Assembly (NCBI RefSeq): GCF_024228315.1
Contig: NZ_CP100455.1
Span: 1 to 64,000 of the forward strand
Source: Halomarina pelagica
GTDB taxonomy: Archaea; Halobacteriota; Halobacteria; Halobacteriales; Haloarculaceae
DNA: 64,000 nt
Direction of reading: 5' to 3'
Below, piece after piece: positions 9,176 to 62,726 of the stretch. How positions within the stretch are numbered: position 1 is the stretch's first letter; each line of letters opens with the position of its first letter. Below the pieces are notes generated by a model. The model had not been told where the DNA came from and ran no database searches. It saw only the letters and a list, made by a program, of their open reading frames with translations. The translations under genes and the position numbers were made by a program.

Positions 9176-9219
9176 CGGTGGGGCCGTCGTTGAAGTGACT
9201 CCGCAGGCTACGGTTCGAC

Positions 9220-39204: not shown

Positions 39205-39495
39205 TCAGCGGCCGCCGAAGAACGTCCGTTTGAGCCGGCCGACGATCCCGACGCGTCGCGACTCGATCTCGGCTTCGATCACCGGTTCGAGCTTCCGTTC
39301 GAGGTCCTCGCGGCTCTCGAAGCGGTCGACCTCGGCGTCGAGGAACAGCTCGGAGACCATTATCATGTACTTGCCGTCCTCGTCGAGCTGGACGTTCGTG
39401 AGGGCGTACTGACGCTCTAACCGGTTTGCCGTCACCGGGTAGCTCCACCCGGCGTCTTCGACGAGTTCGTGGATGGCGTCCGCGCCGTGGGTCAT
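39205..39495 (-). CDS. DUF5789-like small haloarchaeal protein
   Basis: A 96-aa soluble protein beginning MTHGADAIHELVEDAGWSYP. It contains RLERQYALTNVQLDEDG and SELFLDAEVDRFESREDLER, which fit the DUF5789 family as remembered. These proteins are common in haloarchaeal genomes and have no known function. It is the first gene of a two-gene operon with the membrane protein downstream. Confidence 0.65.
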   Translation of the reverse strand: MTHGADAIHELVEDAGWSYPVTANRLERQYALTNVQLDEDGKYMIMVSELFLDAEVDRFESREDLERKLEPVIEAEIESRRVGIVGRLKRTFFGGR

Positions 39496-43462: not shown

Positions 43463-44629
43463 ATGGTGCCGACCATCACGCGAATCGAGTCGACGGAGTT
43501 CAGCTACCCCGTCGAGGACCTCGGCTACTCGCCGAACGGGTTCAGCCTCGTGTACGAACCGGGGAACACGCTGGAGCGCAAGCTGTTCGGGCTGCGGGTG
43601 CACACCGACGCGGGGGTGACCGGCGAGTACGTCGGCGGTAACTCCCCCGCGTTCGCGCAGGTGAACCTGGTCGCGGACTACCTCGTCGGGAAGAACCCGC
43701 TCCACCGCGAGAAACACTGGTCGGAGATGAAACGCGCCCTCCGCAAGTACGACCGGATGGGGATCGGCCCGCTCGACATCGCGCTGTGGGACTTCGCGGG
43801 GAAGTACTACGACGCGCCGATCCACGAGCTGCTCGGCACCTACCGCCGGCGCATTCCGACCTACGCCTCGACGTACCAGGGCGACCGCAACGGCGGGCTG
43901 GACTCGCCGGCGGCGTTCGCCGACTTCGCCGAGACGTGTCGCGACATGGGGTATCCCGCGTACAAGATGCACGTCTGGGGCGGCGAGTGGCGCGACGCCG
44001 ACGAACTCGTCGAGGCCGTCCGCGCGGTCGGCGAGCGCGTCGGCGACGAGATGGACCTGATGCTCGACCCCGCGTGCGAACTGGAGACGTTCGCCGACGC
44101 GTTGCGGGTGGGGAAGGCCTGCGACGAGGCGGGGTTCCTCTGGTACGAGGACCCCTACCGCGACGGCGGCATCTCCCAGCACGCCCACCGCAAACTCAGA
44201 CAGCACCTCGACACCCCCATCCTCCAGACCGAACACGTCCGAGGGCTGGAGCCGTTCACCGACTTCGTCGCGACGGAGGCGACCGACTTCGTGCGGGCGG
44301 ACCCCGAGTACGACGGCGGCATCACCGGCGCGATCAAGCGCGCCCGGATCGCGGAGGGGTTCGGGCTGGACTGTGAGTTTCACGCGCCGGGGCCCGCCCA
44401 GCGCCAGTGTATCGCCGCCATCCGCAACACCAACTACTACGAGATGGCCCTCGTCCACCCGGACGTCCCGAACACGCAACCTCCGGTGTACCTCGACGGG
44501 TACGCCGACATGCTCGACGCGATCGACGGCGACGGGACGGTCGAAGTGCCCGACGGTCCCGGTCTCGGCGTCACCTACGACTGGGATTACGTCGAGGAGA
44601 ACGCGCTCGGCGGGCGCGTCTACGAGTAG
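43463..44629 (+). CDS. Mandelate-racemase-type sugar-acid dehydratase, copy 2
   Basis: A 388-aa enolase-superfamily enzyme of a different subgroup from copies 1 and 3. Lys168 (YKMHVWGG) lies on the second barrel strand. The metal ligands are Asp202 (LDPAC), Glu229 (WYEDP) and Glu257 (QTEHV), and His307 (EFHAPG) is the candidate acid/base. The long N-terminal domain begins MVPTITRIESTEFSYPVEDLG. It probably dehydrates an aldonic acid such as a deoxy-aldonate. Translation start is the only ATG near the conserved first strand. It is flanked by a cupin and an aldo/keto reductase on the same strand. Confidence 0.84.
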   Translation: MVPTITRIESTEFSYPVEDLGYSPNGFSLVYEPGNTLERKLFGLRVHTDAGVTGEYVGGNSPAFAQVNLVADYLVGKNPLHREKHWSEMKRALRKYDRMGIGPLDIALWDFAGKYYDAPIHELLGTYRRRIPTYASTYQGDRNGGLDSPAAFADFAETCRDMGYPAYKMHVWGGEWRDADELVEAVRAVGERVGDEMDLMLDPACELETFADALRVGKACDEAGFLWYEDPYRDGGISQHAHRKLRQHLDTPILQTEHVRGLEPFTDFVATEATDFVRADPEYDGGITGAIKRARIAEGFGLDCEFHAPGPAQRQCIAAIRNTNYYEMALVHPDVPNTQPPVYLDGYADMLDAIDGDGTVEVPDGPGLGVTYDWDYVEENALGGRVYE

Positions 44630-45741: not shown

Positions 45742-46911
45742 CTACCCCTCGATGGTGGCCTCCTCGGCCTCCTGCTCGACCCCGGGTTTCTCCGTACCGT
45801 GCGTGAGCGCCTGTTCGGTGCGGGCGTCGAAGAGGTGGATGTCGTCCTCGGCGAACGTGAACGCGAAGGTGGTGCCGAGTTCGGGCTCGATGGACGACGG
45901 CGTGCGTACCCGGCACTCCTGTCCATCGAGGTCGAGGTAGATGAAGTTGTCCGACCCGACGACCTCGACGACGTCGACGCGGCCGCGGACGATCTTCCCC
46001 TCGGGCGTCGTCTCGTCGGCCTTCGTGATGGCCTCGGGACGGATGCCGAGCACCAACTCGTCGCTCTCGCGGTCGTCGAGGTTGCCGACGATGTGTTCGG
46101 ACACCTCGTAGGTGAACGCCTCGTTTCGGAGTTCGCCGGTGCCGTCGGCGTTCGTCGCTAGCTCGACGTCGAAGAAGTTCATGCTCGGTGAACCGATGAA
46201 GTCGGCGACGAAGACGTTGTTCGGCCGGTAGTAGACGTCCTTCGGCGGCCCGACCTGCTGGAGTCGGCCGTCGTTGAGCACGACGATCCGGTCGGCCATC
46301 GTCATCGCCTCCTCCTGGTCGTGGGTCACGTACAGCGTCGTGATGCCGAGTTCGGTGTGGAGCCGGGCGAGTTCCGTCCGCATGTGCTGGCGGAGCTTCG
46401 CGTCGAGGTTCGACAGCGGCTCGTCGAACAGGAACACCGCCGGCTCGCGGACGATGGCGCGGCCGGTCGCCACGCGCTGCTGCTGGCCGCCCGAGAGCGA
46501 CCCCGGCTTCTTGTCCAGGAGGTCGTCGATGCCCATCATCGTCGCCGCCTCCCTGACGCGCTTGTCTATCTCCTCGTCCGTGAGGTCGGTCGAGAGGCGG
46601 AGCCCGTAGGCCATGTTCTCCGCGACGGTCTTGTGCGGGTAGAGCGCGTAGCTCTGGAAGACCATCGCGATGTCCCGGTCCTTCGGCGCGCGGTCGTTGA
46701 TGACCTCGCCGCCGAGGCGGATCTCGCCGTCGGTGACCGTCTCGAGGCCGGCGACCATCCGCAGCGTGGTCGACTTCCCGCACCCGGACGGTCCGACGAC
46801 GACGATGAACTCGCCGTCGGGGATCTCGAGATCTAGCTCTTCGACCGCCACGATGGGGCCGGAACCGCCATCGAACACTTTGGTCAGGTTGTCGAGTTCT
46901 AATTGTGCCAT
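45742..46911 (-). CDS. Carbohydrate ABC importer ATPase (MalK/UgpC type)
   Basis: A 389-aa ATPase powering sugar uptake. Walker A is GPSGCGKSTT, the signature is LSGGQQQRVATGRAI and Walker B ends VFLFDEPLSNLD, followed by the switch His in YVTHDQEEAM. A C-terminal regulatory region with OB/TOBE folds follows (LGIRPEAI), as in MalK. It is the last gene of the minus-strand operon after two permeases and a binding protein, and the 160-bp gap before it could hold an internal promoter. It may serve several importers. Confidence 0.93.
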   Translation of the reverse strand: MAQLELDNLTKVFDGGSGPIVAVEELDLEIPDGEFIVVVGPSGCGKSTTLRMVAGLETVTDGEIRLGGEVINDRAPKDRDIAMVFQSYALYPHKTVAENMAYGLRLSTDLTDEEIDKRVREAATMMGIDDLLDKKPGSLSGGQQQRVATGRAIVREPAVFLFDEPLSNLDAKLRQHMRTELARLHTELGITTLYVTHDQEEAMTMADRIVVLNDGRLQQVGPPKDVYYRPNNVFVADFIGSPSMNFFDVELATNADGTGELRNEAFTYEVSEHIVGNLDDRESDELVLGIRPEAITKADETTPEGKIVRGRVDVVEVVGSDNFIYLDLDGQECRVRTPSSIEPELGTTFAFTFAEDDIHLFDARTEQALTHGTEKPGVEQEAEEATIEG

Positions 46912-47071
46912 GGTGTGTCGTATTGTTGGGTTACTGTCGGCTCACGCCTATTTAACGGTACGAGTCGAACGATCCCCGCTCGGACGCGGCGCTCTCGGAC
47001 CGACCGTCGACGGCCGGTGGAGCGCGCGCCGGGGCGAACGTCGTCCTCGAAGGTGGGTCTGGTCATGGGAA

Positions 47072-47911
47072 CTATCCGCCGCTGCCGCCGAGTCCTTCGC
47101 CGACGTAGCGCTGGGAGAGGCCGTAGAAGATGACCGGCGGTGCCACCAGGATCACCACCGCGGCCATCAGGAGGTTCCACTCCCGGAGCACGTCGCTCCC
47201 GAGGATGTAGTGGATGGCGACCGTCGCCGTCCGGACGTCCTCGTCGCTCGTGAGGATGAACACCCACAGGAAGTTGTTCCACCCGGAGAGGAACGAGAAC
47301 AGCGCGGCGGCGCCGATGGCGGGCGCGCTCAGCGGGAGCACGATGCGGAGGAACGCGGTGATCTCCGTGTTCCCGTCGAGCAGCGCCGCCTCCTCGATGT
47401 TGGGCGGGATGCCCTGTCGGAAGAACCCCTGGAGCAGCCAGATGTTCTGCGGCAGCGTGAAGATCGCGATGGCGATGATGACGCCGACGAGCGTGTTCAC
47501 GAGACCGAGATTGTAGAAGATCTCGTACACCGGGATGGTGATGACGATCCAGGGGAACATGATGGTGAACACGGCGGTGTAGAACAGCACCTGTCGCCCC
47601 GGGAAGTCGAGCCGGGCGAACGCGTACGCGCCCGGGATGGAGAACAGCACCGAGATGACCATCGCCGACAGCGAGACGATGATGCTGTTGCGGAAGAACA
47701 TCGGGAAGTCGGCGCGGCCCCAGATGCGGAGGAACGGCTCGATGGTGAATACCTCCCCTAGCGGGAGGTACGGGGCGTTCGGATCGACGGCCGCGAAGTT
47801 CGTCAACACGGACGTCCTGAGGACCCACAGGTACGGGAGCAGTGCCCACAGCGTGAAGACGGCGATACCACCCCACAGCAACGCTTTCGAGCGTCTGTTT
47901 TCGTTCAACAT
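47072..47911 (-). CDS. Carbohydrate ABC importer permease (MalG type)
   Basis: A 279-aa permease with six helices. The cytoplasmic EAA loop, EEAALLDGNTEITAFLRIVL, contacts the ATPase. PYLPLGEVFTIEPFLRIW lies in the periplasmic-side loop after the first helix, as in MalG proteins. It starts 3 bp after the stop of the partner permease, so the two are cotranslated. It forms the membrane channel with that partner. Confidence 0.92.
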   Translation of the reverse strand: MLNENRRSKALLWGGIAVFTLWALLPYLWVLRTSVLTNFAAVDPNAPYLPLGEVFTIEPFLRIWGRADFPMFFRNSIIVSLSAMVISVLFSIPGAYAFARLDFPGRQVLFYTAVFTIMFPWIVITIPVYEIFYNLGLVNTLVGVIIAIAIFTLPQNIWLLQGFFRQGIPPNIEEAALLDGNTEITAFLRIVLPLSAPAIGAAALFSFLSGWNNFLWVFILTSDEDVRTATVAIHYILGSDVLREWNLLMAAVVILVAPPVIFYGLSQRYVGEGLGGSGG

Positions 47912-47914
47912 GGG

Positions 47915-48862
47915 TTATACGTAGAGTTCCTCCTCCTGTCTGATCGCGTTGACGTAGATGATACCGGCGGCCATCGCCAGGATAATCATCACGACGCCGA
48001 TGGTGAACGCGCGCGCGAACGAGAGGTTCACGAACGCGGTACGGTACGTCAGGATGGACAGGAGCATCGTCCGGGTTCCCGGGCCTCCGGCGGTCAGTTC
48101 GAACGGTTGTGCGAACTCGGCGACGTTCCACGCCGTCCGGAGCGCAAGGATGACCACCGTGGGGATCATCAGGTGCGGGAGCGTCACGTCGCGGAACCGC
48201 CGGATCCGTCCGGCACCGTCGAGGGCCGCGGCCTCGTACTGCTCGCTCGGGACGGACGCCAGCGCGGCCCCGTAGATGATGGCCGCGTACGCGAAGTCGT
48301 GCCACACCTGGGCGACGATGAGCGAGACGTAGGGCCAGAACCCCTCCGCCAGGAACGACGGGACGGTCGTCCCGAAGTCGGAAGCAACCTTGACGATGAG
48401 CCCGAAGTTGCTGTCGAGGAACCAGAACCAGATGACACCGCCGGCCAGCGGGGCCGAGAAGTACGGCGACATCAGGATGGCGGCGAACGTCCCCTTCAGA
48501 CCGGATCGGATCTCGTTCAACAGCAGCGCCACCAGGAGGCCGACCACCAACTGTAGCGTCGTCACGCTGAAGACGAACACCATGGTCCACCCCAGCGCGA
48601 ACACGAACAGGTCGTTCGAGATCAGCCACGCGTAGTTGTCGAGTCCGACGAACTGGGCGCTGGCCCCGCCGAGCGTCGCGTTCGTGAACGTGAGGTAGAT
48701 CCCCTGGATGATGGGGATGTAGAACAGGAGGATGAACATGACGAACGTCGGGAGGATGAACAGGTACCCGGCGTAGTTCTCCTTGATCCTGTCTACGAGC
48801 GTCTCCTCTTCGAGCCCGTATCGCTGTCTGATGGCCTCTGCGGACCGTTGTTCCTGTGCCAC
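47915..48862 (-). CDS. Carbohydrate ABC importer permease (MalF type)
   Basis: A 315-aa permease with six helices. The EAA loop reads YEAAALDGAGRIRRFRDVTL. The GTG at 48862 was chosen because GGAGGTGA, a near-perfect complement to the 16S rRNA 3' end, lies 8 nt upstream; a TTG at 48880 would overlap that site. It sits between the solute-binding protein and the MalG-type gene in one operon. Confidence 0.92.
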   Translation of the reverse strand: MAQEQRSAEAIRQRYGLEEETLVDRIKENYAGYLFILPTFVMFILLFYIPIIQGIYLTFTNATLGGASAQFVGLDNYAWLISNDLFVFALGWTMVFVFSVTTLQLVVGLLVALLLNEIRSGLKGTFAAILMSPYFSAPLAGGVIWFWFLDSNFGLIVKVASDFGTTVPSFLAEGFWPYVSLIVAQVWHDFAYAAIIYGAALASVPSEQYEAAALDGAGRIRRFRDVTLPHLMIPTVVILALRTAWNVAEFAQPFELTAGGPGTRTMLLSILTYRTAFVNLSFARAFTIGVVMIILAMAAGIIYVNAIRQEEELYV

Positions 48863-48995
48863 GTTACCAGTCACCTCCAAGCATCGTACGGCGTTTCACG
48901 AACACAGTACATAAAACGTTGTGGGTCATACGAGTAGTATCTGAACGGTGGGCATTTTTGTGTCTTCGAGAGGTCGTTCGAGCGCTATCGAACCG

Positions 48996-50504
48996 TTAGC
49001 TGTTCCGCTCCTTCAGCGTCTTGTCGACCTTCTGTCTGACCTGCTGGGGTAGCTGGTCGACGCCGACCTGACCCGCGATGGCCTTGCTGATCGTCTCGTT
49101 CATGTCGGTCCAGCGGATCTGGTCGGTGCCGTTGACGTCCCACGGGCCACCCGTGTTGTTGTACTGGGTGCCGTATTTCTTGAGGTCCTGGAGGACCATC
49201 TTGAAGTTCTGGGGCAGATCTGGGTACTCCTCGAGCAGTTTGTCCTGCATCGGCGTGTCCGCCGGGATGGCGGGGTACAGTTCGCCGTAGAGCGTGAGGA
49301 CGTGCTGGTCGTCCTGGTGGAGGAAGGTGTTGAGGTCCCACGCGGCGTCCATCTTCTTCTGGTCGCCGACGTCGTAGATGGAGTGGGCCTGCTCGAGCGC
49401 CCACACGTGACCGCCGTGTTCGCCCTCCAGCCCTTCGAGTTCGCTGATGCCCATCTTGGCACCGTAGTCGGCGTCGAGCTTCGGGTGCGGGATCGCCATC
49501 ACGTCGCCGTCGCCGCCGTTCCAGCCGAATTTGACGTCCTCCTTGACCGTCGTCCAGCGGGTGAAGTTCTGGGTCATGTAGTTGAACGACCCGACGCGGT
49601 CGGTCAGCATCAGCGACGGGATCTCCTCGTCGCTGCGCTGGGCGGTGCTGTCGCTGGAGAACTTGCTCGCCAGCATGACGGTGTTCTTCATCATCCCGTC
49701 GGTCCGCTTGCCGTCCTCGCTGTCGGCGTTGATGATGACGTCGGGGTCCTTCGGGTCGCCCCGGATCCACGGGTCCTTCCCCTCGGTGTGAGCGGTGCGG
49801 GCCTCGCCCCAGTAGGCCTCGAGGTCGGCTGCGGCACCCGTCTGCTCGAACGCGTTGGCGTTGGGGAACTCCTTCTGTACCTTGTTGAGCGCGTCGAGGA
49901 ACCCGCTCCACGTCTGGAGTTCGTCGGGGCTGGAGACGCCGGCCTGGCTGAACATCTTCGGCCGGATGCCCGTGTGACTTACGCTGTGGCGGAGCGGGCC
50001 GCCGCTCCACCAGTTACCGCGGAAATCGGCCGTCGCCTTCGACGCGACGCTCCAGCGGTCGGGGTAGTCGCTCCCCTCGACCCACTGGCCGTGGTCGGGT
50101 ACCTTGCCGTCCTGCCAGAAGTCGATGCCCGCGCCGCCGGACTCCGCCAGCGTCGGCGGATTGCCCGCCGAGACGGTCGACGCGATCTTCTGCCGGACGT
50201 CGGAGTAGGAGGTCGTCTGCAGGTTGACCTTCACTCCCGCCTGTTCGCCGAATCGGTTGACCGACTCCTGGAAGTGCGGTTTGGTGAGGGAGTTCTCGGC
50301 GGCCTCCGCCGAGAGGTAACTGATGGTGACGTCCGCGGAGCCACCACCGCCGCCGTTGCCGCCGCCACCGCCACCGCCGCCGCCGGCACAGCCGGCGAGC
50401 GCTCCGAGCGCCCCGGTCGCACCCGTGGCAGCGGTCGCTTTCAGGAAGTCACGTCGAGACGTGTCTTCGGAGGTATCGGTTGCCCTGATGTCACGCTTTG
50501 ACAT
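48996..50504 (-). CDS. ABC importer solute-binding lipoprotein (carbohydrate family 1)
   Basis: A 502-aa extracellular binding protein. The twin-arginine signal SRRDFLK (Arg17-Arg18) and lipobox LAGC (Cys39) show Tat export and lipid anchoring, the usual haloarchaeal route. A glycine-rich linker spans residues 40-56. The mature domain fits family 1 extracellular solute-binding proteins, with WTDMNETISKAIAGQ near the end. It is the first gene of the importer operon. It would bind the sugar or sugar acid that the island degrades. Confidence 0.92.
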   Translation of the reverse strand: MSKRDIRATDTSEDTSRRDFLKATAATGATGALGALAGCAGGGGGGGGGNGGGGGSADVTISYLSAEAAENSLTKPHFQESVNRFGEQAGVKVNLQTTSYSDVRQKIASTVSAGNPPTLAESGGAGIDFWQDGKVPDHGQWVEGSDYPDRWSVASKATADFRGNWWSGGPLRHSVSHTGIRPKMFSQAGVSSPDELQTWSGFLDALNKVQKEFPNANAFEQTGAAADLEAYWGEARTAHTEGKDPWIRGDPKDPDVIINADSEDGKRTDGMMKNTVMLASKFSSDSTAQRSDEEIPSLMLTDRVGSFNYMTQNFTRWTTVKEDVKFGWNGGDGDVMAIPHPKLDADYGAKMGISELEGLEGEHGGHVWALEQAHSIYDVGDQKKMDAAWDLNTFLHQDDQHVLTLYGELYPAIPADTPMQDKLLEEYPDLPQNFKMVLQDLKKYGTQYNNTGGPWDVNGTDQIRWTDMNETISKAIAGQVGVDQLPQQVRQKVDKTLKERNS

Positions 50505-52015: not shown

Positions 52016-52909
52016 TCAGGTCGACTCGGAACGGGCGGCGACGGCGTCGTAGGCGTCGGCGAGTCGCCGTTCCTCCTCGGGCGACAGCTCCGGTAGCGGC
52101 AGCAGCGGCGGCCCCACCTCGACGCCGCTCCACCGGACGAGGAACTTGAGCGCCGCCGTCGTCGGGAGGCCGTCGTGGGCGGTGCTGATCGGTATCGCCA
52201 CGTCGTTGCACAGCCGTGCGACGCGCTCCCGGTCGCCGTCGACGTGGGCGTCGTACAGTTCGGCCATCGCCGCCGGGAAGACGTTTGCCGCCCCCGCGAC
52301 GATACCGTCGGCCCCCGCATCGAGCGATGCGGCCCCGAGCGCCGTGATGCCCTGGACGACGGCGAAGTCGTCCGGCGTGCCATCGACGAGTCGGAAGTGG
52401 TAGCTCGCCCGTCCGGAGGAGTCCTTGATGCCGACGACGTTGTCGTGGTCCGCCAGCGTCGCCACCGTCTCGACGTCGAGGGTGACGCCGGTCAACTGGG
52501 GGATGGTGTAGAGCACCACCGGGAGCGGCGAGCGGTCCGCCACGGTCTCGTAGAACTCGAGCAGTCCCGCCTGCGTCGTCGAGAGGTAGTAGGGCGTCAC
52601 GACGACCGCCGCGTCGGCACCCGCACCCGCGGCGTCGTCGACGGCGGCGAGCACGTATCCGACGCTCGTCCCCCCGCAGCCGGCGATGACGGGCGTCCCG
52701 TCGGCCGACTCGACCACCGTCTCGACGACGGTTCGTCGCTCCGCCCGCGTGAGGCTGGAGAACTCGCCGGTCGACCCGTTCGGAAACAGCGCGTGGACGC
52801 CGTCCGCGACGAGCGAGGCGGTGAACGATCGGAGCGTCGGAACGTCGACGCCGCCGTCTCGACCGAGCGTCGGCGTCACCATCGGCGGAATCGTGCCAGT
52901 GATTCGCAT
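52016..52909 (-). CDS. DapA-family aldolase/lyase (probable 2-keto-3-deoxy acid aldolase)
   Basis: A 297-aa TIM-barrel class I aldolase of the dihydrodipicolinate synthase/N-acetylneuraminate lyase family. Schiff-base Lys162 (VVGIKDSSG), Tyr134 (LYTIP) and the GSTGE carboxylate-binding motif at 45-49 are all present. In archaea this family includes KDG/KDGal aldolases that split 2-keto-3-deoxy acids to pyruvate and glyceraldehyde. The adjacent galactonate dehydratase strongly supports that role over lysine synthesis. It has its own promoter. Reverse or dehydratase chemistry remains possible. Confidence 0.87.
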   Translation of the reverse strand: MRITGTIPPMVTPTLGRDGGVDVPTLRSFTASLVADGVHALFPNGSTGEFSSLTRAERRTVVETVVESADGTPVIAGCGGTSVGYVLAAVDDAAGAGADAAVVVTPYYLSTTQAGLLEFYETVADRSPLPVVLYTIPQLTGVTLDVETVATLADHDNVVGIKDSSGRASYHFRLVDGTPDDFAVVQGITALGAASLDAGADGIVAGAANVFPAAMAELYDAHVDGDRERVARLCNDVAIPISTAHDGLPTTAALKFLVRWSGVEVGPPLLPLPELSPEEERRLADAYDAVAARSEST

Positions 52910-52954: not shown

Positions 52955-54133
52955 TCACCACTCGGCGACGCTGCCGTCCTCGTGCCGCCAGACGTCGCGG
53001 TAGACGGAGAGCGCGTCCCCCCAGTCGACGGCCGCGGGGTCCTCCGCCGCCTCCCGAACCGCCGACTCGTCGAGTTCGACGCCGAGGCCGGGGGCGTCCG
53101 GAACGTCGACGTAGCCGTCCTCGTACTCGAATATCGACGAGTCCGCGAGGTAGTCGAGCAGGTCGGCCTCGCGGTTGTAGTGGATGTCGAGGCTCTGTTC
53201 CTGGATGAGCGCGTTCGGCGTGGCGGCGTCGACCTGCAGGCAGGCCGCCAGCGCGACCGGCCCCAGCGGGCAGTGCGGCGCGAGCGCGACGTCGTACGCC
53301 TCCGCCATCGCCGCGATCTTTCGCACCTCCGTGATGCCGCCCGCGTGCGAGAGGTCCGGTTGCACGACGTCGACCGCGCCGGACTCGAGGAGCGGCTTGA
53401 AGTCCCAGCGGGTGAACAGCCGCTCGCCCGTGGCGACGGGCGAGTCGGTGTGCGCCGCGACCTCCGCGAACGCCTCGACCTGTTCGGACAGGACGGGTTC
53501 CTCGACGAACATCGGGTCGTAGGGGTCGAGCGCCGCCGCCAGCTTCTTCGCCATCGGCTTCGCCACCCGCCCGTGGAAGTCGACCGCGACGTCGACGTCC
53601 GGCCCGACCGCCTCCCGGACCTCCCGGAGGCGCGCGACGGCGGCGGCGACCGCGGCGGGCGATTCGACGCGGCGGAACTCCCCGGTCGCGTTCATCTTCA
53701 GCGCGGTAAAGCCCTCCTCGACCTTCTCGCTCGCCGCCTCGCCCACGTCCGAGGGCCGGTCGCCGCCGATCCACTGGTACACTCTGACGCGGTCGCGCGC
53801 GCGCCCGCCGAGCAACTCGTGGACGGGCAGACCGGCGCGTTTGCCCTTCAGGTCCCAGAGCGCCTGGTCGATGCCGGATATGGCGCTCATGAGGACGGGG
53901 CCGCCGCGGTAGAACCCCCCGCGGTACATCGTCTGCCAGTGGTCCTCGATCCGGGCGGCGTCGGCCCCGCGCAGTCGCTGCTCGAAGAGCACGTCGACGG
54001 CCGACGCGACGGGAGCCGGCCCGCCGCCGCCGGTCACGTGCTCGCCCCACCCGACGGTGCCCTCGTCGGTCTCGAGGCGGACGAGCAGCCACCGCGGCGG
54101 GACCGCGAACGTCTCGCAGTCGACGAGCGTCAC
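52955..54133 (-). CDS. dgoD: D-galactonate dehydratase (enolase superfamily)
   Basis: A 392-aa enzyme converting D-galactonate to 2-keto-3-deoxygalactonate. It follows the E. coli DgoD sequence closely by memory: YRGGFYRGGPVLMSAISGID, QPDLSHAGGITE, LAPHCPLGP and the exact-type C-terminus WRHEDGSVAEW. Ligands Asp185, Glu211 and Glu237 with His187 and His287 correspond to the E. coli residues with an offset of two. The GTG start overlaps the upstream stop (GTGA), so it is coupled to the 2-hydroxyacid dehydrogenase. The aldolase gene follows 45 bp downstream. This is the surest functional call in the island. Confidence 0.93.
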   Translation of the reverse strand: MTLVDCETFAVPPRWLLVRLETDEGTVGWGEHVTGGGGPAPVASAVDVLFEQRLRGADAARIEDHWQTMYRGGFYRGGPVLMSAISGIDQALWDLKGKRAGLPVHELLGGRARDRVRVYQWIGGDRPSDVGEAASEKVEEGFTALKMNATGEFRRVESPAAVAAAVARLREVREAVGPDVDVAVDFHGRVAKPMAKKLAAALDPYDPMFVEEPVLSEQVEAFAEVAAHTDSPVATGERLFTRWDFKPLLESGAVDVVQPDLSHAGGITEVRKIAAMAEAYDVALAPHCPLGPVALAACLQVDAATPNALIQEQSLDIHYNREADLLDYLADSSIFEYEDGYVDVPDAPGLGVELDESAVREAAEDPAAVDWGDALSVYRDVWRHEDGSVAEW

Positions 54134-55074
54134 GGGTCGTTCACCGCCGTCTCGGGGCGCTCGCCCTCGAGCGCCTGCCGGATCGCCCGCGCGACGCCCT
54201 CGCGGCACTCGCGCTCCGACTCCTCGGAGTACCACGCCTGGTGGGGCGTGGCGACGACCCGCGGGTGGTCCCGGAGGGGGTTGTCGACCGCCGGCGGTTC
54301 CGTCTCGAACACGTCGAGCCCCGCGCCGGCGATCTCGCCGGCGGAGAGCGCCTCGATCAGCGCCGCCTCGTCGACGACGGGGCCGCGCGCGACGTTTATC
54401 AGGGACGCCGTCCCCTTCATGCGGGCGAAGACGTCGGCGTCTATCATCCCCTCGGTCTCCGGCGTCAGCGGCGAGTGGACCGAGAGGTAGTCGGCGCGCT
54501 CGACGGCCTCCTCGAACGAGACGAGTTCGGCGTCGTGGTCGGCGACGTCGTCGGGTCCGAGGTACGGGTCGGCCGCGAGCACCGTCGCGCCGAGCGCCGC
54601 CGCCCGGTCGCCGACGCCGCGACCGAGCCTCCCGAAGCCGACGACGCTCACCGTCTCCTCGGAGAAGCGACGTATCTCCGCGGCGCGGTCGGTCTTCCAC
54701 TCGCCGGCGGCCATCCCGGTACCGTACTGCTTGAGCTGGCGGTCGAGCGCGAGGATCAGGGCGATCGCGTGGGTCGGCACCTCCTCCGTGCAGTAGTCGG
54801 GAACGTTCGCCACGTAGATGCCGCGCTCCGTCGCCGCCTCGACGTCGATGTTGTCGACGCCGATTCCGTAGCGGGCGATGACCCGACAGCGCTCCAGTCG
54901 GTCGACGTCGGCGGCGGAGACGACGTCGACGTGGTTGATGAGGGCGTCGGCGTCCGCGAGCGAGACCCCGTCCTCGTCGAGGCGTCGTATCTCCGCGACG
55001 TCCCCCAGTATCTCCCGCTCGACGCTGAACTCCCCGTAGCGCTGGTCGGTCGCGACCACGGTGTATTCGATCAT
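54130..55074 (-). CDS. 2-hydroxyacid dehydrogenase (C-terminal binding protein-like)
   Basis: A 314-aa NAD(P)-linked dehydrogenase. VVGFGRLGRGVGDRA is the Rossmann loop, IARYGIGVDNIDV and INVARGPVVDE are the family signatures, and TPHQAWYSEES holds the catalytic His in the CtBP-like form. The ATG at 55074 was preferred to one four codons upstream. It overlaps dgoD by four bases, so the two are cotranslated. It may reduce a keto acid, for example hydroxypyruvate to glycerate. It is divergent from the chaperonin-like gene at 55164, with 89 bp between. Confidence 0.88.
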   Translation of the reverse strand: MIEYTVVATDQRYGEFSVEREILGDVAEIRRLDEDGVSLADADALINHVDVVSAADVDRLERCRVIARYGIGVDNIDVEAATERGIYVANVPDYCTEEVPTHAIALILALDRQLKQYGTGMAAGEWKTDRAAEIRRFSEETVSVVGFGRLGRGVGDRAAALGATVLAADPYLGPDDVADHDAELVSFEEAVERADYLSVHSPLTPETEGMIDADVFARMKGTASLINVARGPVVDEAALIEALSAGEIAGAGLDVFETEPPAVDNPLRDHPRVVATPHQAWYSEESERECREGVARAIRQALEGERPETAVNDP

Positions 55075-55163: not shown

Positions 55164-56732
55164 ATGGCCGAGAACGCGCGCGCCACCCTGACGGCCGACG
55201 CCCGTACCGTCTGTGACCTCGTCCGGACCACGCTCGGGCCGTTCGGCGCGAACAAACTCGTGATCGGCACGGACGGAACGGTGACGACGACGGCGTCTGG
55301 GTCGCTCGTTCTCGACTCGCTCGAACTCGACAATCCGGCGGTGCGGCTGTTGAAGGGGGCCGCGAGCGACTTCAGGAACGCGCACGGCGACGGGTCGAGC
55401 ACGGTCGTCGCGCTGACGGGCGCGCTCCTCGACGAGGCGGACCGCCTCTCGGAACTGGGACTGCACCCGACGACGATCGAGCGGGGGTACCGCGAGGCGC
55501 TCGGCGTCGCCGTCGACCGACTGGAACGGAGCGCCCGTCCGCTCGAGGCGGTCGGCGTCGACGCCGTCGCGCGAACGGCGCTCACGGGGACGCGCAACCC
55601 GAACACGCGCGCGCAGGTGGGCGGGTACGTCGAGCGCGTCGCCGCGACGCTCGACGCCGACGACGGCTTCGACGCCGACCGGGTGGCGGTCCGCTCGCGG
55701 CTCGGCGGGGCCGAGGCCGAGACGGAACTCGTCGCGGGCGTCGTCCTCGATCGCGACCCGGTGACCGACGACATGCCGCGGACGCTCGACGACGCCGGCG
55801 TGGCGGTGCTCTCGACGACGGTGGACGTGCCGCGGCTCGGCGGCGCGACCGGCCGGCTGAACGCCGGAATCCGCATCACGCCCGAGACCTTCGAGGACCG
55901 CGCCGCCCTCGGCGAGACCGAGCGCGAGCGCTTCCGCGAACGGCTCGACGCCGCCCTCGACGCCGGGTGTCGCGTCGTCGTGACCGGTCGCTCCATCAAC
56001 GAGCGCGTCGAGCGGACGCTGGCGAACGCGGGCATCCTCGCGCTCCAGCGCGTCGACGAGGGGGACCTGCGGCGGATCGCCCGCGCCACCGGCGCGACGG
56101 TCGTCCCCGGACTCGATCAGGTGACGACGGAGGCGGTGGGGCGCGCGAACGTCCGCGTGACCAGGCGGGCAGGCCGCGACGTGACGTCCTTCGAGTCCGT
56201 CGGCGAGGAGCGAGCGCCCGTGTACACGCTGTTCTGTCGGGCTCCGGACGCGCGGTCGGTGGAGGCGTTCGAGCGCTCCGTCGAGAGCGCGCTTGCCGCC
56301 GTCGACCACGCCTGCCGGACGCGGACCGTCGTCCCCGGCGGCGGTGCGGCCGAGACCGGGGCGACGCTCGCGGTCCGCGAGCACGCCCGGTCGGTCCCGG
56401 GAACCGAACAGCTCGCGATCGAGGCGTTCGGCGACGCGCTCGCGGTCGTCCCGCGGGCACTGGCGGTCAACGCCGGCATCGACGGCTGGCGCGGCCTCGT
56501 CCGCCTCCGGGTCGCCCACCACGAGGGACGCGACGCGGTGGGCGTCGACTGCCTGTTCGGGGAGACGCGGGACGTCCTCGCGGAGGACCCCATCGCCGAA
56601 CCGACGGGGCTCAAGCGGGAGGTGTGGTCGGCGGCGACGGACCTCGCCGTCCACCTCGTCCGCATGGACGCCGAACTCCCGGCGTCGGACCTGAGCGACG
56701 ACGAACCGGCAGGTCGCGAGGAGCGGCGTTGA
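55164..56732 (+). CDS. Divergent group II chaperonin homologue, copy 1
   Basis: A 522-aa protein of the thermosome/TCP-1 family, which folds proteins in an ATP-driven double ring. LGPFGANK (24-31) replaces the usual GPKGMDKM, GDGSS (75-79) matches GDGTT, but the Asp of the NDGA motif is Ser45. The C-terminal equatorial part is well conserved (VVPGGGAAETGATL and EQLAIEAFGDALAVVPRALA). Loss of one Asp and a shortened apical region suggest altered or absent ATPase activity. It converges on copy 2. Its neighbours are metabolic, not chaperone, genes. Confidence 0.85.
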   Translation: MAENARATLTADARTVCDLVRTTLGPFGANKLVIGTDGTVTTTASGSLVLDSLELDNPAVRLLKGAASDFRNAHGDGSSTVVALTGALLDEADRLSELGLHPTTIERGYREALGVAVDRLERSARPLEAVGVDAVARTALTGTRNPNTRAQVGGYVERVAATLDADDGFDADRVAVRSRLGGAEAETELVAGVVLDRDPVTDDMPRTLDDAGVAVLSTTVDVPRLGGATGRLNAGIRITPETFEDRAALGETERERFRERLDAALDAGCRVVVTGRSINERVERTLANAGILALQRVDEGDLRRIARATGATVVPGLDQVTTEAVGRANVRVTRRAGRDVTSFESVGEERAPVYTLFCRAPDARSVEAFERSVESALAAVDHACRTRTVVPGGGAAETGATLAVREHARSVPGTEQLAIEAFGDALAVVPRALAVNAGIDGWRGLVRLRVAHHEGRDAVGVDCLFGETRDVLAEDPIAEPTGLKREVWSAATDLAVHLVRMDAELPASDLSDDEPAGREERR

Positions 56733-56821
56733 CGGGGACGGCGTCGACGGGGACAGCGTCGACGGGGACAGCGTCGACGAGGACGGCGTCGACGGGGACA
56801 GCGTTGGCGGGGACCGGCGTC
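56731..56821. repeat. 15-bp tandem repeats between convergent chaperonin genes
   Basis: Five 15-bp units of the type GACGGGGACAGCGTC (56731-56805), with one or two changes each, are followed by a degenerate 16-bp unit up to 56821. They fill exactly the gap between the stop codons of the two genes. The unit length keeps any reading frame open. A role in termination or simple slippage is possible. Confidence 0.85.
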
Positions 56822-58511
56822 ACTCCCGTTCGGGGTTCGGGCTGAAGCGGCCGAGGTCGACGCCGGGGTGGACCACCGCGTCGACGGTCAGCAACTGTTC
56901 GGTGACGGCGTTGGCCGTCTCCAGCGCCTGCGAGAACAGCCGGCGGGGTTCGACGACGCCGGCGTCCCACGCGTCGAACGGTTCGCCGGCGGCGGAGATC
57001 CCCACGTCGAGCGGTCCCTCGCCGGTGGCGTGTTCGGCCCGGAGCGCCGGCACCGCGTCGAGGGGGTCGACGCCCGCGTTCTCCGCCAGCGCCGTCGGCA
57101 CCGACTCGACCGCGTCGGCGAACGCCTCGACGGCCAGCTGTTCGACGTCGGCGACGGTGGTGGCGTACTCGCGGAGGTCGGTCGCGACGGCCATCGCGGG
57201 CGCGCCCGCTCCCGGGAGCACCTGTCGGTCGGTGGCGGCCGTCGCGGTCACTTCGAGGGCGTCCTCGAGCAGTCGCTCGTGTTCGGCGCTCGCCGTCTCC
57301 GTCTCCACGTCGACGACGAGGGTGTAGACGCCACCCTCGCAGTCGTCGAAGAAGGTCCACTTCTCGTCGCCGACGCGGCGTTCGGTCACCGACCCGGCCA
57401 CCCCGAGCCGGTCGGGTGAGAGTTCCGAGAGGTCGTCGACCACGGTCCCGCCGGTCGCCCGCGCCAGCCGGTAGACGTCTGCGAGCGGGTACTTCACCTC
57501 GTCGACGACGGCCACGCCGCGGGCCTCGAACGCCGTCCGTTCCCGGTCGCCGAGGCGCTCCTGGGAGACGAGCACGTCGACGCCCATCCCGGCGAGGTGA
57601 TCGGCGACCGCCGCGACGCGCCGGTCCAGCCCCTCGGTGTAGGCGTCCCACTGCTCGAACGACTCGATGACGACGCCCGGGTCGCCCCCCTCGCCGAACG
57701 ACGTCGCCGTCCGCTCGAAGTCGATCTCCTCGTCGACGAGCGCCACCGTCGCGTCGGTCACCGGATCGAGCGTCGACCAGTCGAACTCCCGCACCGACTC
57801 CTCGGACTCGTCGAGCGGCCCGGGGTAGCGGCGAACGACGAGGCCGCGGTAGCGACCGCCCGGTGCCTCGGGGCCGGCGAGTACCTTCGCGTCGTCGGCG
57901 TCGACCCAGTCGACGTCGCCGCTTCCGGCGAGCGCGCGAACCGCCTCCGCCACCCGGGAGGCGTACGTCGCGCGGGTGGTCGCGTCGAGCCCCCCGGTCA
58001 TCGACGTCGCGGCGACGCGTTCGAGGGGTGCGGTGTCCTCCGGGTCGATCTCGCGGGCGAGCGAGTCGAGGACGACCCCCGCGCGAGCGGCGGCCATCGC
58101 GTACCCGACGACGACGTTCCCCGGGTGGAGCCCCCGCTCGACGAGGTCGATCCCCTCGCCGAGGAGGGCGTCGCCGACGAGGACGGCGGTGGTCGACCCG
58201 TCTCCGAGTTCCCGCCGCATCGCGTCGACGGCGTCCACGAACAGCGCGGTCACGGGGTGGCCGAACCCGCCGCCCCGCTCGATTGCGTCGAGTATCTCGC
58301 CGGCGTCGGACGTCCACACCGTCTCCGGTCTCCCCTGGAGGTCCTCGGTCGCTATCTGGCTGGTCATGCCGTTCGGGCCGAACGACGACCGGACGAGCGA
58401 CGCGACGGCTCGCGTCCCCGCCGAGACGAACGTCCGGGCCTCCTCGTCGCGCAGGGTCCACGACCCCGCGTCGACGCGGTCGTAGCCTCCGTCCTCGCGT
58501 CCGACGTCCAT
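56820..58511 (-). CDS. Divergent group II chaperonin homologue, copy 2
   Basis: A 563-aa thermosome-like protein. It keeps more of the ATP site than copy 1: FGPNGM (44-49), SDAGEIL with Asp69 in the position of the NDGA Asp, and GDGSTT (103-108). VLPGAGAPAMAVATDLREYA and AVEAFADAVESVPTALAENAG are the conserved C-terminal equatorial segments. It could form a ring or mixed ring with copy 1. The ATG at 58511 has a TATA-like element at leaderless spacing. It is divergent from the kinase gene at 58649. Confidence 0.86.
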   Translation of the reverse strand: MDVGREDGGYDRVDAGSWTLRDEEARTFVSAGTRAVASLVRSSFGPNGMTSQIATEDLQGRPETVWTSDAGEILDAIERGGGFGHPVTALFVDAVDAMRRELGDGSTTAVLVGDALLGEGIDLVERGLHPGNVVVGYAMAAARAGVVLDSLAREIDPEDTAPLERVAATSMTGGLDATTRATYASRVAEAVRALAGSGDVDWVDADDAKVLAGPEAPGGRYRGLVVRRYPGPLDESEESVREFDWSTLDPVTDATVALVDEEIDFERTATSFGEGGDPGVVIESFEQWDAYTEGLDRRVAAVADHLAGMGVDVLVSQERLGDRERTAFEARGVAVVDEVKYPLADVYRLARATGGTVVDDLSELSPDRLGVAGSVTERRVGDEKWTFFDDCEGGVYTLVVDVETETASAEHERLLEDALEVTATAATDRQVLPGAGAPAMAVATDLREYATTVADVEQLAVEAFADAVESVPTALAENAGVDPLDAVPALRAEHATGEGPLDVGISAAGEPFDAWDAGVVEPRRLFSQALETANAVTEQLLTVDAVVHPGVDLGRFSPNPERE

Positions 58512-58648: not shown

Positions 58649-59653
58649 ATGGCTGAGACCGCCACGCTCGACGCGTCGACGGCCGTGCCGTACCTCCGTC
58701 GGCACGGCGTCGTCGACGGGGACGCCGAGGCGTCGTCGCTCGGCGGCGGCGTCTCGAACGCCGTCGTCCGCGTCGACGCGGGAGCGGAGTCCTACGTGCT
58801 GAAGCAACCGCACCCGAACCTCCGCGTCGCGGACGACTGGCCGGCGGACGTCTCTCGCGTCCACAACGAGGCCGCCGCCGCCCGCGCGTACGCGGACGTC
58901 GTCGAACGGGCCGGCATCGACGACGTGGTCGTCCCCGAGGTGGTGTTCGAGAGCCGCGAGGACCACGTCATCGTCGTCACGTGCGCGCCGGACGAGGCGA
59001 CGATGTGGAAGCGGGACCTGCTGGCCGGCCGCGTCGACGCCGGGGTGGCCGCGTCGCTCGGTCGGTTCCTCGGGACGGCCCACCGGCTCGCGGCCGGGAC
59101 GGACGACGTCCGGGCGTCGTTCCGCGACAAGACGCCGTTCGACCAGCTCCGCGTCGACCCGTACCACCGGACGACGGCCGACCGCCACCCGGACCTCGCA
59201 GAGCCCGTCCTCGCGGAGGCAGAGCGGGTCCTCGCTGCCGACCGGACGCTCGTCCACGGGGACTACAGCCCCAAGAACGTCCTCGTCGCCGACGACCTGT
59301 GGGTGCTCGACTTCGAGGTGGCCCACTGGGGCGACCCGGCGTTCGACGCGGCGTTCATGCTCAACCACCTGTTCATCAAGTCGATCCACGTCGCCGACGC
59401 GCGCGCGGCGCTCCGCCGGTCGGCGCTCGCGTTCTGGCGGCGGTACGAGGCGGCCGTCGAGTGGGACGTCGAGCGGGAGACGGTCGCCGAACTCTCGGTG
59501 CTGATGCTCGCGCGGGTCGACGGCAAGTCGCCCGTCGAGTACGCCGACGAGACGACGCGAGCGCGGTTGCGCGAGGTCGCCACCCGCGGGCTCCGCGGGG
59601 AGGCCGAGACGGTGGACGGCTTCGCCGACCTGGTCCGGGAGGCGTGTGCGTGA
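58649..59653 (+). CDS. Small-molecule kinase of the aminoglycoside-phosphotransferase/methylthioribose-kinase fold
   Basis: A 334-aa kinase. Lys52 (YVLKQ) and Glu74 (HNEAAA) form the ATP-binding pair, HGDYSPKN at 203-210 is the Brenner motif with catalytic Asp205, and DFEVAHWGDP at 221-230 carries the metal-binding Asp221. GAGGTGA 8 nt before the ATG is a strong ribosome site. The stop overlaps the enolase start (GTGA), so both are made together. An aldehyde, sugar or glycerate-like substrate fits the context better than a drug. Substrate is inferred only. Confidence 0.83.
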   Translation: MAETATLDASTAVPYLRRHGVVDGDAEASSLGGGVSNAVVRVDAGAESYVLKQPHPNLRVADDWPADVSRVHNEAAAARAYADVVERAGIDDVVVPEVVFESREDHVIVVTCAPDEATMWKRDLLAGRVDAGVAASLGRFLGTAHRLAAGTDDVRASFRDKTPFDQLRVDPYHRTTADRHPDLAEPVLAEAERVLAADRTLVHGDYSPKNVLVADDLWVLDFEVAHWGDPAFDAAFMLNHLFIKSIHVADARAALRRSALAFWRRYEAAVEWDVERETVAELSVLMLARVDGKSPVEYADETTRARLREVATRGLRGEAETVDGFADLVREACA

Positions 59654-60918
59654 GCGCGACGGTCACCGGCGTCGACGCCTGGGAGGTGCTCGACTCCCGC
59701 GGCGACCCGACGGTCCGCGTCGCCGTCGACGTCGAGGGGGGTCGCGGCGTCTTCACCGTTCCCGCGGGGGCCTCGACGGGGGCTCACGAGGTCGTAGAGC
59801 GCCGCGACGGCGGCGAGCGGTACGGCGGTAAGGGCGTGACGGCGGCGGTCGAGGCCGTCCGGGAGACGCTCGCGCCGGTCGTCGTCGGGATGGACGCGAC
59901 CGATCAGCGGGCGATCGACGCCGCACTCGTCGAGCGCGACGGTACCGGGGACCTCACGAACCTCGGCGGTAACGCGGTTCTCGGCGTCTCGGGCGGCGTC
60001 GCCCACGCCGTCGCCGACGCCCGGGACGAACCGCTCTACCGGACGCTCGCCGACGGCGACCCGGGGGCGATCCCGCGGCCGATGGTGAACGTGCTGAGCG
60101 GCGGCCTCCACGCCCGCGGCGGCATCGAGATACAGGACTTCCTCGTCGTACCGACGGGCGCGGAGACCTACCCGGAGGCGCTCGAGACCGCCTGGTCGGT
60201 CCGCGACGCGGTCCGCGAGCGCATCGAGGCCGACGGCGAGCGCCCGCTCGTCGCCGACGAGGGCGGCTACGCCCCGCCGCTCGCCGACGTCGACGACGCC
60301 TTCGAGTTGCTGGCGTCCTGCGTGCGCGACGCGGGCCACGAGCCGAGCCGAGACGACGTGGCGTTCGCCGTCGACGTGGCGGCGACGCACTTTTACGACG
60401 AGCGCGACGGGTCGTACGCGCTGTCCGCGCTCGACCGGCCGCTGGACCGCGAGGGGATGATCGACCTCGTCGCCGGGTGGACCGAGCGCTACCCCGTCGT
60501 CTCGGTCGAGGACCCGCTGGCGGACGACGACTGGGAGGGGTGGGCGCGGCTCGCCGATCGCCTCTCGGGCGTCCAGTTGCTCGGCGACGACCTGCTCGCG
60601 ACGGACGCCGCCCGGATCCGGCGGGCGGCCGCGTCGGGCGCGGCGAACGCGGCGCTCGTCAAGCTCAATCAGGCCGGGACGGTGACGCGGACGCTCGACG
60701 CCGTCGAGGCGGCCCGCGACGCCGGCTTCGCGACGGTCGTCTCGGCGCGCTCGGGCGAGACGTGCGACGCCACCATCGCGGATCTCGCGGTCGCCGTCGA
60801 CGGCGGCCAGATAAAGATCGGCTCGCTCGCCCGGTCGGAACGACTGGCGAAGTACAACCGCCTGCTGGAGATCGACCGCGCCCTCGACGCGCCGCTCTCG
60901 GCGGACCCCGCGCCGTAG
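59650..60918 (+). CDS. Enolase paralogue with altered active site
   Basis: A 422-aa enolase-family protein. Metal ligands Asp242, Glu287 and Asp313 and bases Lys338 and Lys389 are kept, as is Glu204 in ADEGGYAP. Two active-site positions differ from true enolase: the QEF Glu is Asp163 (IQDFLV), and the His of SHRSGE is Ala366 (SARSGET). It may thus work slowly on 2-phosphoglycerate or act on a different phosphorylated acid. The GTG start overlaps the kinase stop. It is probably not the housekeeping enolase, which is elsewhere in haloarchaeal genomes. Confidence 0.86.
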   Translation: MSATVTGVDAWEVLDSRGDPTVRVAVDVEGGRGVFTVPAGASTGAHEVVERRDGGERYGGKGVTAAVEAVRETLAPVVVGMDATDQRAIDAALVERDGTGDLTNLGGNAVLGVSGGVAHAVADARDEPLYRTLADGDPGAIPRPMVNVLSGGLHARGGIEIQDFLVVPTGAETYPEALETAWSVRDAVRERIEADGERPLVADEGGYAPPLADVDDAFELLASCVRDAGHEPSRDDVAFAVDVAATHFYDERDGSYALSALDRPLDREGMIDLVAGWTERYPVVSVEDPLADDDWEGWARLADRLSGVQLLGDDLLATDAARIRRAAASGAANAALVKLNQAGTVTRTLDAVEAARDAGFATVVSARSGETCDATIADLAVAVDGGQIKIGSLARSERLAKYNRLLEIDRALDAPLSADPAP

Positions 60919-61730: not shown

Positions 61731-62726
61731 TCAATCGCGTCCGAAGAGCTTCGCCATCGTCTCCCGCTCCGCCCGGATGAACGCCGATTCGCGTTGCTTC
61801 TTGTAGAGCCGCTTGAGGCCGGGGCGGTCGAGCCGTTGTTCGACGCTCCACTCCCGGACGAACGTGCCGTCGTCGATCTCCCGCAGGCGCTCCTCGACGA
61901 ACGCCTTGAGCGGCTCGTGGTCGAACTTCTCGGCGCGGGAGAGCTGGCCGTACTGGCTGGTCGTCGAGTGATAGGGCAACTGGCCGAGGAATCCCTCCTC
62001 GGCCATCAGCTCGAAGATCTCCGCCATCTCCTTCGAGAGGTAGAGTTCGGACATGGCGATCTCCGGGGGGATGCCGTGGGCCACCTCCACCTCGAACTTC
62101 GCCCGCATCGCGCCCATCAGCATCGGCACCAGCGCCTGCTCCGAGAGCAGGTCGACCGTGGTCTCCATGTCGAACGTCCCCTCGACGACGCCGGCGGACG
62201 TCGACCCGATGCCCTTCGCGAGCGCCAGCGCCGTCGCCGTCGCCTCGCCCGTCGCGTCCTGGTTCACCGCGAGGATGCTCGGGAAGCTCTCTCCCGCCTC
62301 GTAGAGCGTGCGGACCGAGGGGCCGCCCATCCGCGGGGCGACGAGGACGACGTCGACGTCGTCCGGGGGCTGGATCAGGTCGAAGGTGACGTTGTAGCCG
62401 TGCGAGAAGGAGAGCGTGTCGCCAGCCGCGAGGTGCGGTTCGACCTTCTCCTCGTACACCTCGGGAGCGACCTCGTCGGGGACGAGCAGGACGACGACGT
62501 CACCCTCGGCGGCCGCCTCGTCGATGGCGTAGGCCTCGAAGCCGTCCTCGCGGACGCGCTCGCGGTAGTCGTCCGACCGGTTGCCGACGACCACGCTGAC
62601 GCCGGAGTCGCGGAGGTTCAGCGCCTGCGACCGCCCCTGGTTGCCGTAGCCGATGACCGCCACCGTCCGACCGTCGAGGGTCGACAGGTCGGCGTCCTCG
62701 TCGTAGTAGACTGTCGTCTCGGACAT
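61731..62726 (-). CDS. Ketol-acid reductoisomerase homologue, orphan copy
   Basis: A 331-aa protein of the IlvC family. Residues 22-31 (VAVIGYGNQG) form the NADPH loop. SHGYN contains His109, and candidate magnesium ligands Asp192, Glu196 (TTVDLLSEQ) and Glu227 (MSELYLSKEM) remain. The usual GPGHTVR is changed to GGPSVRT. IlvB, IlvN, LeuA and IlvD are absent nearby, so branched-chain synthesis is unlikely here. It may reduce a 2-keto acid in the island. The ATG at 62726 begins the conserved part. It converges with the cupin and lies downstream of dehydratase copy 5. Confidence 0.85.
   Translation of the reverse strand: MSETTVYYDEDADLSTLDGRTVAVIGYGNQGRSQALNLRDSGVSVVVGNRSDDYRERVREDGFEAYAIDEAAAEGDVVVLLVPDEVAPEVYEEKVEPHLAAGDTLSFSHGYNVTFDLIQPPDDVDVVLVAPRMGGPSVRTLYEAGESFPSILAVNQDATGEATATALALAKGIGSTSAGVVEGTFDMETTVDLLSEQALVPMLMGAMRAKFEVEVAHGIPPEIAMSELYLSKEMAEIFELMAEEGFLGQLPYHSTTSQYGQLSRAEKFDHEPLKAFVEERLREIDDGTFVREWSVEQRLDRPGLKRLYKKQRESAFIRAERETMAKLFGRD

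Follow-up and report, generated by a model that had tools for sequence, protein, structure and literature searches.

Group II chaperonins of archaea are usually treated as general housekeeping machines. Rings that bind ATP with hydrolysis blocked in some or all subunits have been engineered, namely the Mm-cpn mutant D386A, which binds ATP without hydrolysing it (PMC5019054), and the Thermoplasma D93/D94 mutants, whose alpha/beta thermosomes continue to assemble as alpha8beta8 and to cycle ATP although one of the two subunits cannot hydrolyse it (PMC5983026). The vertebrate proteins MKKS, BBS10, and BBS12 are diverged members of group II in which the Gly-Pro dipeptide is retained, and loss at the ATP-hydrolysis site has been reported for MKKS and BBS12 (PMC2846930). 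The window analysed here, 64,000 nt at the start of a 617-kb contig (NZ_CP100455.1) of Halomarina pelagica (genome 4.6 Mb, main contig 3.54 Mb), carries two divergent group II chaperonin genes within a sugar-acid island: A (nt 55164–56732, + strand, 522 aa) and B (nt 56820–58511, - strand, 563 aa). As a reading of the sequence alone (hereafter the sequence-only reading) had proposed, both were TCP-1/cpn60 homologues, matching PF00118 over nearly the full length with 347.8 and 305.4 bits, respectively (cut-off 34.3 bits), and were arranged tail to tail, the 87-bp gap being mostly occupied by a 15-bp tandem repeat of 6.5 units (nt 56724–56821). The evidence presented below leans slightly towards A and B being the subunits of a hetero-oligomeric accessory chaperonin of group II that is reserved for a single importer module, of the CUT1 type.

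The distribution of A and B was determined in 293 Halobacteriales genomes, with the best few candidates scored per genome, so that a rare missed copy is possible. Besides the genome of the window, A-type genes were present in 13 genomes at 53% to 73% identity, the next matches having at most 41%, and B-type genes occurred in exactly the same set (14/293), neither gene being found without the other. In a contig scan, 15 named haloarchaeal records had A-type loci and no such locus was detected outside Halobacteria, the other three matches being methanogen or unclassified euryarchaeal chaperonins of 34% to 35% identity. The genome set and the named records together represented 23 distinct species; carriers of the locus include Haloferax sulfurifontis, H. 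denitrificans, and H. massiliensis, congeners of the laboratory species H. volcanii. The two genes adjoin and converge in all nine additional named loci, as they do in 12 of the 14 genomes. Gene calling, which used adapted codon models for the low-GC loci L056, L057, and L062, and clustering revealed an ATP-binding cassette (ABC) importer of the CUT1 type beside A and B in nearly all loci. In the window this importer spans nt 45742–50504, beyond the interval considered by the sequence-only reading, and consists of four genes on the - strand, encoding a solute-binding protein with a twin-arginine translocation (Tat) lipobox signal (nt 48996–50504; SBP_bac_1 and TAT_signal), permease 1 (nt 47915–48862; BPD_transp_1), permease 2 (nt 47072–47911; BPD_transp_1), and an ATPase of the MalK/UgpC type (nt 45742–46878; NF008653, 450 bits, cut-off 432), the last two being present in all 23 species.

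The binding protein, the conserved partner, whose Tat-lipobox signal was present in 13/13 loci checked, was found at E <= 1e-30 in precisely the 14 genomes with A and B and in no other of the 293; permease 1 was found in the same 14 at identities of at least 58%, the next best match having 36%. A, B, and the four importer genes were all present in 23/23 species. The link survives rearrangement, since A and B are 3.3 kb apart in Halorussus vallis and about 31 kb apart in Haladaptatus sp. QDMS2, and the importer lies about 6 kb away in Haloplanus ruber. Thus, an invariant genetic association with one module, by which a dedicated chaperone may be recognized, was observed in 14/14 genomes and 23/23 species, and the carbohydrate-gene association noticed from the sequence was real and recurred across loci. 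The simplest account of a link so exact and so resistant to rearrangement is a functional one, in which a product of this module is the target of A and B, and such a link to the module is quite probable.

Linked genes can also be carried along together, and A and B might be passengers without a role on a mobile catabolic island. The loci are often on megaplasmids and have moved between families, and linked genes travel together; in the tree of A, the genome of the window clustered with genomes of family f5, apart from its own family, indicating horizontal transfer. Such a passenger status is nevertheless very improbable, because A and B were full-length and under purifying selection, with ratios of nonsynonymous to synonymous substitution (dN/dS, NG86 method) of 0.14 to 0.31 for A and 0.09 to 0.26 for B, below 0.32 in every pair tested, were never lost from nor found without the importer in the 293 genomes through rearrangements that the link outlasted, and belong to a class in which several clades each hold one module type (see below). 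Pseudogene decay of A was ruled out by the dN/dS values together with the full-length conservation. The corresponding values for permease 1 were 0.03 to 0.10 (pairs with measurable change); A and B are therefore constrained, yet evolve faster than the importer.

Alignment with chromosomal and other archaeal thermosomes revealed different active sites in the two proteins. In A, Ser45 (codon at nt 55296–55298, +) replaces the catalytic Asp of the NDG motif (Mm-cpn D60) and Ser375 (nt 56286–56288, +) that of VEDAL (Mm-cpn D386), positions that we take to be those of GroEL D52 and D398, respectively, while Asp76 of GDG in the Mg-ATP site (nt 55389–55391, +) is retained, as in all A proteins. All three residues are kept by B, namely the NDG-type Asp69 (nt 58305–58307, -), Asp104, and the EDAL Asp417 (nt 57261–57263, -); Ser45 and Asp69, singled out from the sequence as the lost and the kept Asp, both align with the NDG position. 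In A, the NDG Asp was absent in 23/23 species, three of which have Ala and the others Ser, and the VEDAL Asp was absent in 22/23, Halorussus vallis having kept it; in B, the NDG-type Asp was present in 22/23 species and the EDAL Asp in 21/23, with Asn in two Haladaptatus. The Lys of the TGK loop is missing from both. Of the four residues that make up a full ATPase site (the Asp of NDG, of GDG, and of EDAL and the Lys of TGK), all kept by the reference haloarchaeal and methanogen thermosomes in the alignment, A thus has the GDG residue alone and B the three Asp residues without the Lys. The pairing of one catalytically dead with one intact subunit, anticipated in the sequence-only reading, therefore extends at the sequence level over 23 species, and A is very probably a subunit that binds ATP and is dead in hydrolysis.

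The trees of A and B showed similar internal branching, and of the 15 gene pairs that A, B, and the four importer genes allow, none had pairwise distances in the 23 species correlating as strongly as those of A and B (r = 0.97). A dead and a live subunit that co-vary to this degree are most economically explained by a mixed ring with ATP hydrolysis confined to B, and an A-B hetero-oligomer is likely. In such a ring, A would hold Mg-ATP without hydrolysis and B would hydrolyse it, so that firing would occur at only part of the ring sites, by analogy with the engineered half-dead alpha/beta thermosomes of Thermoplasma. With less certainty, the ring would fold or hold a product of the importer operon, the likeliest candidate being the Tat lipoprotein binding protein, which should fold in the cytoplasm before export. 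The Tat pathway exports folded proteins, and a cytoplasmic chaperonin could therefore act on the binding protein; this is suggestive only, and the binding protein as the main client is a tentative assignment that we regard as somewhat doubtful. Distance correlation failed as proof of this client when the correct copies from the 23 species were used.

The correlations with importer genes were 0.72 for A and the binding protein, 0.87 for A and MalK, and 0.90 for B and MalK, the two latter being the highest between A or B and the importer in the full set. They could be taken to mean that A and B do not fold a client but regulate the importer, for instance by acting as a holdase that senses ATP at the MalK-type ATPase or the membrane complex, a function to which the exact tie with the whole importer and the loss of catalytic residues from A would also be suited. 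However, the hydrolysis residues are kept by B in most species, and the differences between the correlations are small and shift with the species set. To our knowledge, there is no precedent for a chaperonin as an importer regulator, and there is only a slight chance that A and B are one.

The sequence-only reading had placed A and B between a dehydrogenase and dgoD on one side and a kinase-enolase operon on the other, and had suggested a mixed ring or non-folding scaffolds for the island enzymes. These flanking genes are present: a D-2-hydroxyacid-dehydrogenase-like gene (nt 54130–55074, -; family F9), at whose place in L171 a gene is annotated "C-terminal binding protein"; a dgoD-like gene of the mandelate-racemase (MR) family (nt 52955–54133, -; F1); and, across B, an APH-family kinase gene (nt 58649–59653, +) overlapping by 4 bp an enolase gene (nt 59650–60918, called on the + strand; TIGR01060, 458.6 bits, cut-off 300). 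A gene for an aldolase of the dihydrodipicolinate-synthase (DHDPS) family lies at nt 52016–52882 (-; F7, same annotation in L171). It might be supposed that A and B fold or scaffold such enzymes (MR-superfamily dehydratases, DHDPS-type aldolases, and dehydrogenases), many of them with the TIM-barrel fold, which is enriched among the clients of GroEL; MR- or DHDPS-family genes were near A and B in nearly all loci, and the formamidase-linked chaperonins described below suggest that an enzyme can be a partner. The enzymes, however, vary between loci, the first two and the aldolase being variable neighbours, and two that are common at A/B loci, an MR-family enzyme (F6; nt 43463–44629, + in the window) and a tartrate/isopropylmalate-dehydrogenase-like enzyme, were detected in 107 and 58 genomes, respectively, out of 293, mostly without A and B, whereas the importer was never detected without them. 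The kinase-enolase pair recurs, among the 14 loci, only in Haladaptatus sp. QDMS2 (G116). Neither this pair nor dgoD is a conserved partner, each being confined to few loci or widespread without A and B. Since the enzymes are variable and common elsewhere and the importer is invariant, the importer rather than dgoD, the kinase, or the enolase is the partner of A and B, and a scaffold for island enzymes is less likely; folding or scaffolding of these enzymes is, in our estimate, unlikely.

Several other features of the locus were observed. The tandem repeat between the stop codons of A and B is unsupported as a functional element, the A-B gaps at other loci, compared by length, being not conserved (-4 to 123 bp). 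The enolase gene is a second one of the phosphopyruvate-hydratase type, which together with the kinase could yield phosphoenolpyruvate from a sugar-acid product. A ketol-acid-reductoisomerase-like gene (nt 61731–62726) is oddly placed in a catabolic island and is also found in the related loci G099 and G116. Two uncharacterized genes (nt 38153–39202 and 39205–39495; 349 and 96 aa) accompany the importer as a pair in seven loci. Orphan paralogues of the binding protein, 42% to 44% identical and with no permeases or chaperonins nearby, were present in two of the 14 genomes (L077:6863-8314 and L079:5623-7164, both -).

Public records list A and B under the product name "TCP-1/cpn60 chaperonin family protein", and their membership in the PF00118 superfamily is certain. 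Both are closer to group II chaperonins than to GroEL, scoring 325 bits with thermosome alpha versus 69 with GroEL for A and 288 versus 86 for B. With the thermosome models NF041082, NF041083, and TIGR02339, A scored 325, 316, and 324 bits and B 289, 279, and 288 bits, reaching none of the cut-offs (450, 400, and 671). AlphaFold2 models built from 14-member alignments had a mean predicted local distance difference test (pLDDT) score of 80.7 for A, the five models of which spread widely from 39.7 to 80.7, and 79.9 for B, and the nearest folds of both in Foldseek were group II chaperonins (probability 1.00). A has few residues ahead of helix 1 and B a conserved non-GGM C-terminal tail; the Gly-Met tail present on most chromosomal haloarchaeal thermosomes examined is absent from both. 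By the features tested, A and B thus do not appear to be ordinary thermosome subunits. In the tree, from which GroEL sequences (L129-L133) were excluded, they formed separate clades of 23 species each, with support of 100 in the Shimodaira-Hasegawa-like approximate likelihood ratio test (SH-aLRT) and stems of about 1.0 to 1.1 changes per site; they lay outside the ordinary thermosome subunits, so that the nesting by which the sequence-only reading would have been refuted was not observed.

The main contig encodes four more PF00118 members, which score above A and B, and group II rings accept several paralogues. A and B could accordingly enter the general thermosome encoded on the chromosome and regulate it from within, with A as a brake subunit, and shift its range of clients when the substrate is present. 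This is improbable, because both have diverged far, by about one change per site on each stem, while they co-vary with r = 0.97, for which a private complex is the better fit, and neither was found without the other.

Other accessory chaperonins were sought by tblastn of A against PLSDB, which yielded 37 haloarchaeal plasmids with chaperonin genes, and 25 annotated neighbourhoods (L171-L195) were examined; this survey is non-random, as the loci were picked by similarity to A, and members of a clade share history, so that locus counts are not independent. All nine members of one clade (seven on plasmids and two on main contigs) adjoin the formamidase gene fmdA, and for both main-contig copies the placement in the tree came before fmdA was sought beside them; one of these is on the main contig of the window's own genome (L199:6598-8286, -, with fmdA at L199:5253-6509, +). 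Further clades were associated with GH4-CUT1 modules (4/4), xylose/galactoside-CUT1 modules (3/3), and polyamine-type ABC operons, within which the genes lie (4/4). All these clades were defined in a second tree, in which, according to the warning of the tree program, the positions of the long branches relative to one another are unsure. Single cases were L173, between Opp/Dpp operons, and L159, beside another ABC importer; L175, L180, L183, and L192 fitted no module type. The L159 gene (9609-11237, -) encodes a very divergent solitary chaperonin, not found in 98 other genomes searched, that has lost the EDAL Asp and has a C-terminal tail resembling that of B; the importer beside it has a Tat-lipobox binding protein, and the gene lies in a LamB/YcsF-type cluster. 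At L183, on plasmid 2 of Haladaptatus sp. QDMS2, there is a second adjacent pair (5872-7599 and 7733-9316); both catalytic Asp residues are replaced by Asn in one of the two proteins, whereas Asp is retained in the other, and judging by these residues it is an independent live/dead pair.

As a control, 13 loci of other main-contig chaperonin genes from four genomes were inspected; none was beside an ABC importer recognizable with the queries used, and at one an isolated ATPase gene lay at a distance of about 6 kb. As background, two ABC clusters, one of them a full CUT1 importer, were found when three stretches of 50 kb each were inspected on plasmids of the type surveyed. The view that haloarchaeal thermosome genes are normally elsewhere, as the sequence-only reading had it, needs correction, accessory chaperonins beside catabolic modules being common on haloarchaeal plasmids. 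The formamidase clade shows that this accessory class is not limited to importers. Separately, an in-frame TAG, possibly a re-read stop codon, was observed in a chaperonin gene of four genomes from one genus outside the order (G293:C3:30171-31676, G302:C61:21573-23078, G320:C32:154858-156363, and G328:C162:5698-7203).

What supports a dedicated-chaperone function of A and B is the pattern of occurrence, and several points weigh against it. A and B are transcribed apart from the importer operon, and co-occurrence of linked genes can stem from transfer as a single block. The distance correlations do not point to the binding protein as the client, and a Tat-lipobox signal is frequent on haloarchaeal binding proteins. 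Nor is the division into a live and a dead subunit absolute, as the A of Halorussus keeps the second Asp and a few B proteins are without one Asp. Finally, formamidase-linked chaperonins occur without an ABC importer, and folding of a binding protein therefore cannot explain the whole class. A broader proposition, that haloarchaea possess a repertoire of accessory clades, each specialized on and travelling with one catabolic or uptake module and sometimes, as in A/B and independently on QDMS2 plasmid 2, comprising an ATPase-competent and an ATPase-dead partner, is in our judgement evenly balanced between true and false. If dedication to single modules holds, cells can evolve folding machines for one module instead of the whole cell, and natural material would be available on the number of ring sites that need to hydrolyse ATP. 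With a separate chaperonin clade for each of the formamidase, GH4-CUT1, xylose-CUT1, and polyamine-type modules, haloarchaea allow a direct test of whether group II chaperonins are client-specific. There is also a bearing on horizontal transfer, in that a catabolic module may have to bring along a chaperonin of its own if it is to function in a high-salt cytoplasm.

No description of importer-linked or module-specific haloarchaeal chaperonins was found in the full-text subset of PubMed Central, subscription papers being outside that scope. Among described systems, the thermosome alpha/beta (Thermoplasma alpha8beta8 and its haloarchaeal counterparts) shares with A/B the superfamily, the predicted three-domain fold, the use of two paralogous subunits, and the GP and GDG motifs; A and B differ in scoring far under the equivalog cut-offs, in lacking the Gly-Met tail and the TGK lysine, and in being linked to an importer, and A in addition lacks both catalytic Asp residues. 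The divergent Methanosarcina-type paralogues, presumably those named Hsp60-4/5, are likewise additional chaperonins of group II that evolve fast within a single archaeal genome, but the candidates for them in the tree (D_L135, D_L137, and D_L138) were placed elsewhere and keep the NDG and EDAL Asp residues, unlike A. The pseudo-chaperonins MKKS, BBS10, and BBS12 resemble subunit A alone, in the loss of hydrolysis residues with retention of Gly-Pro, a likeness in the way of working for which no kinship beyond the superfamily is claimed, these proteins being eukaryotic and tied to human disease syndromes. Compared with the engineered chaperonins, in which the Asp blocked in Thermoplasma is that of GDG (PMC5983026), A retains the GDG Asp and is a natural protein that has lost two others, at the D60 and D386 positions and not at D93, over 23 species, next to a partner that keeps its Asp residues.

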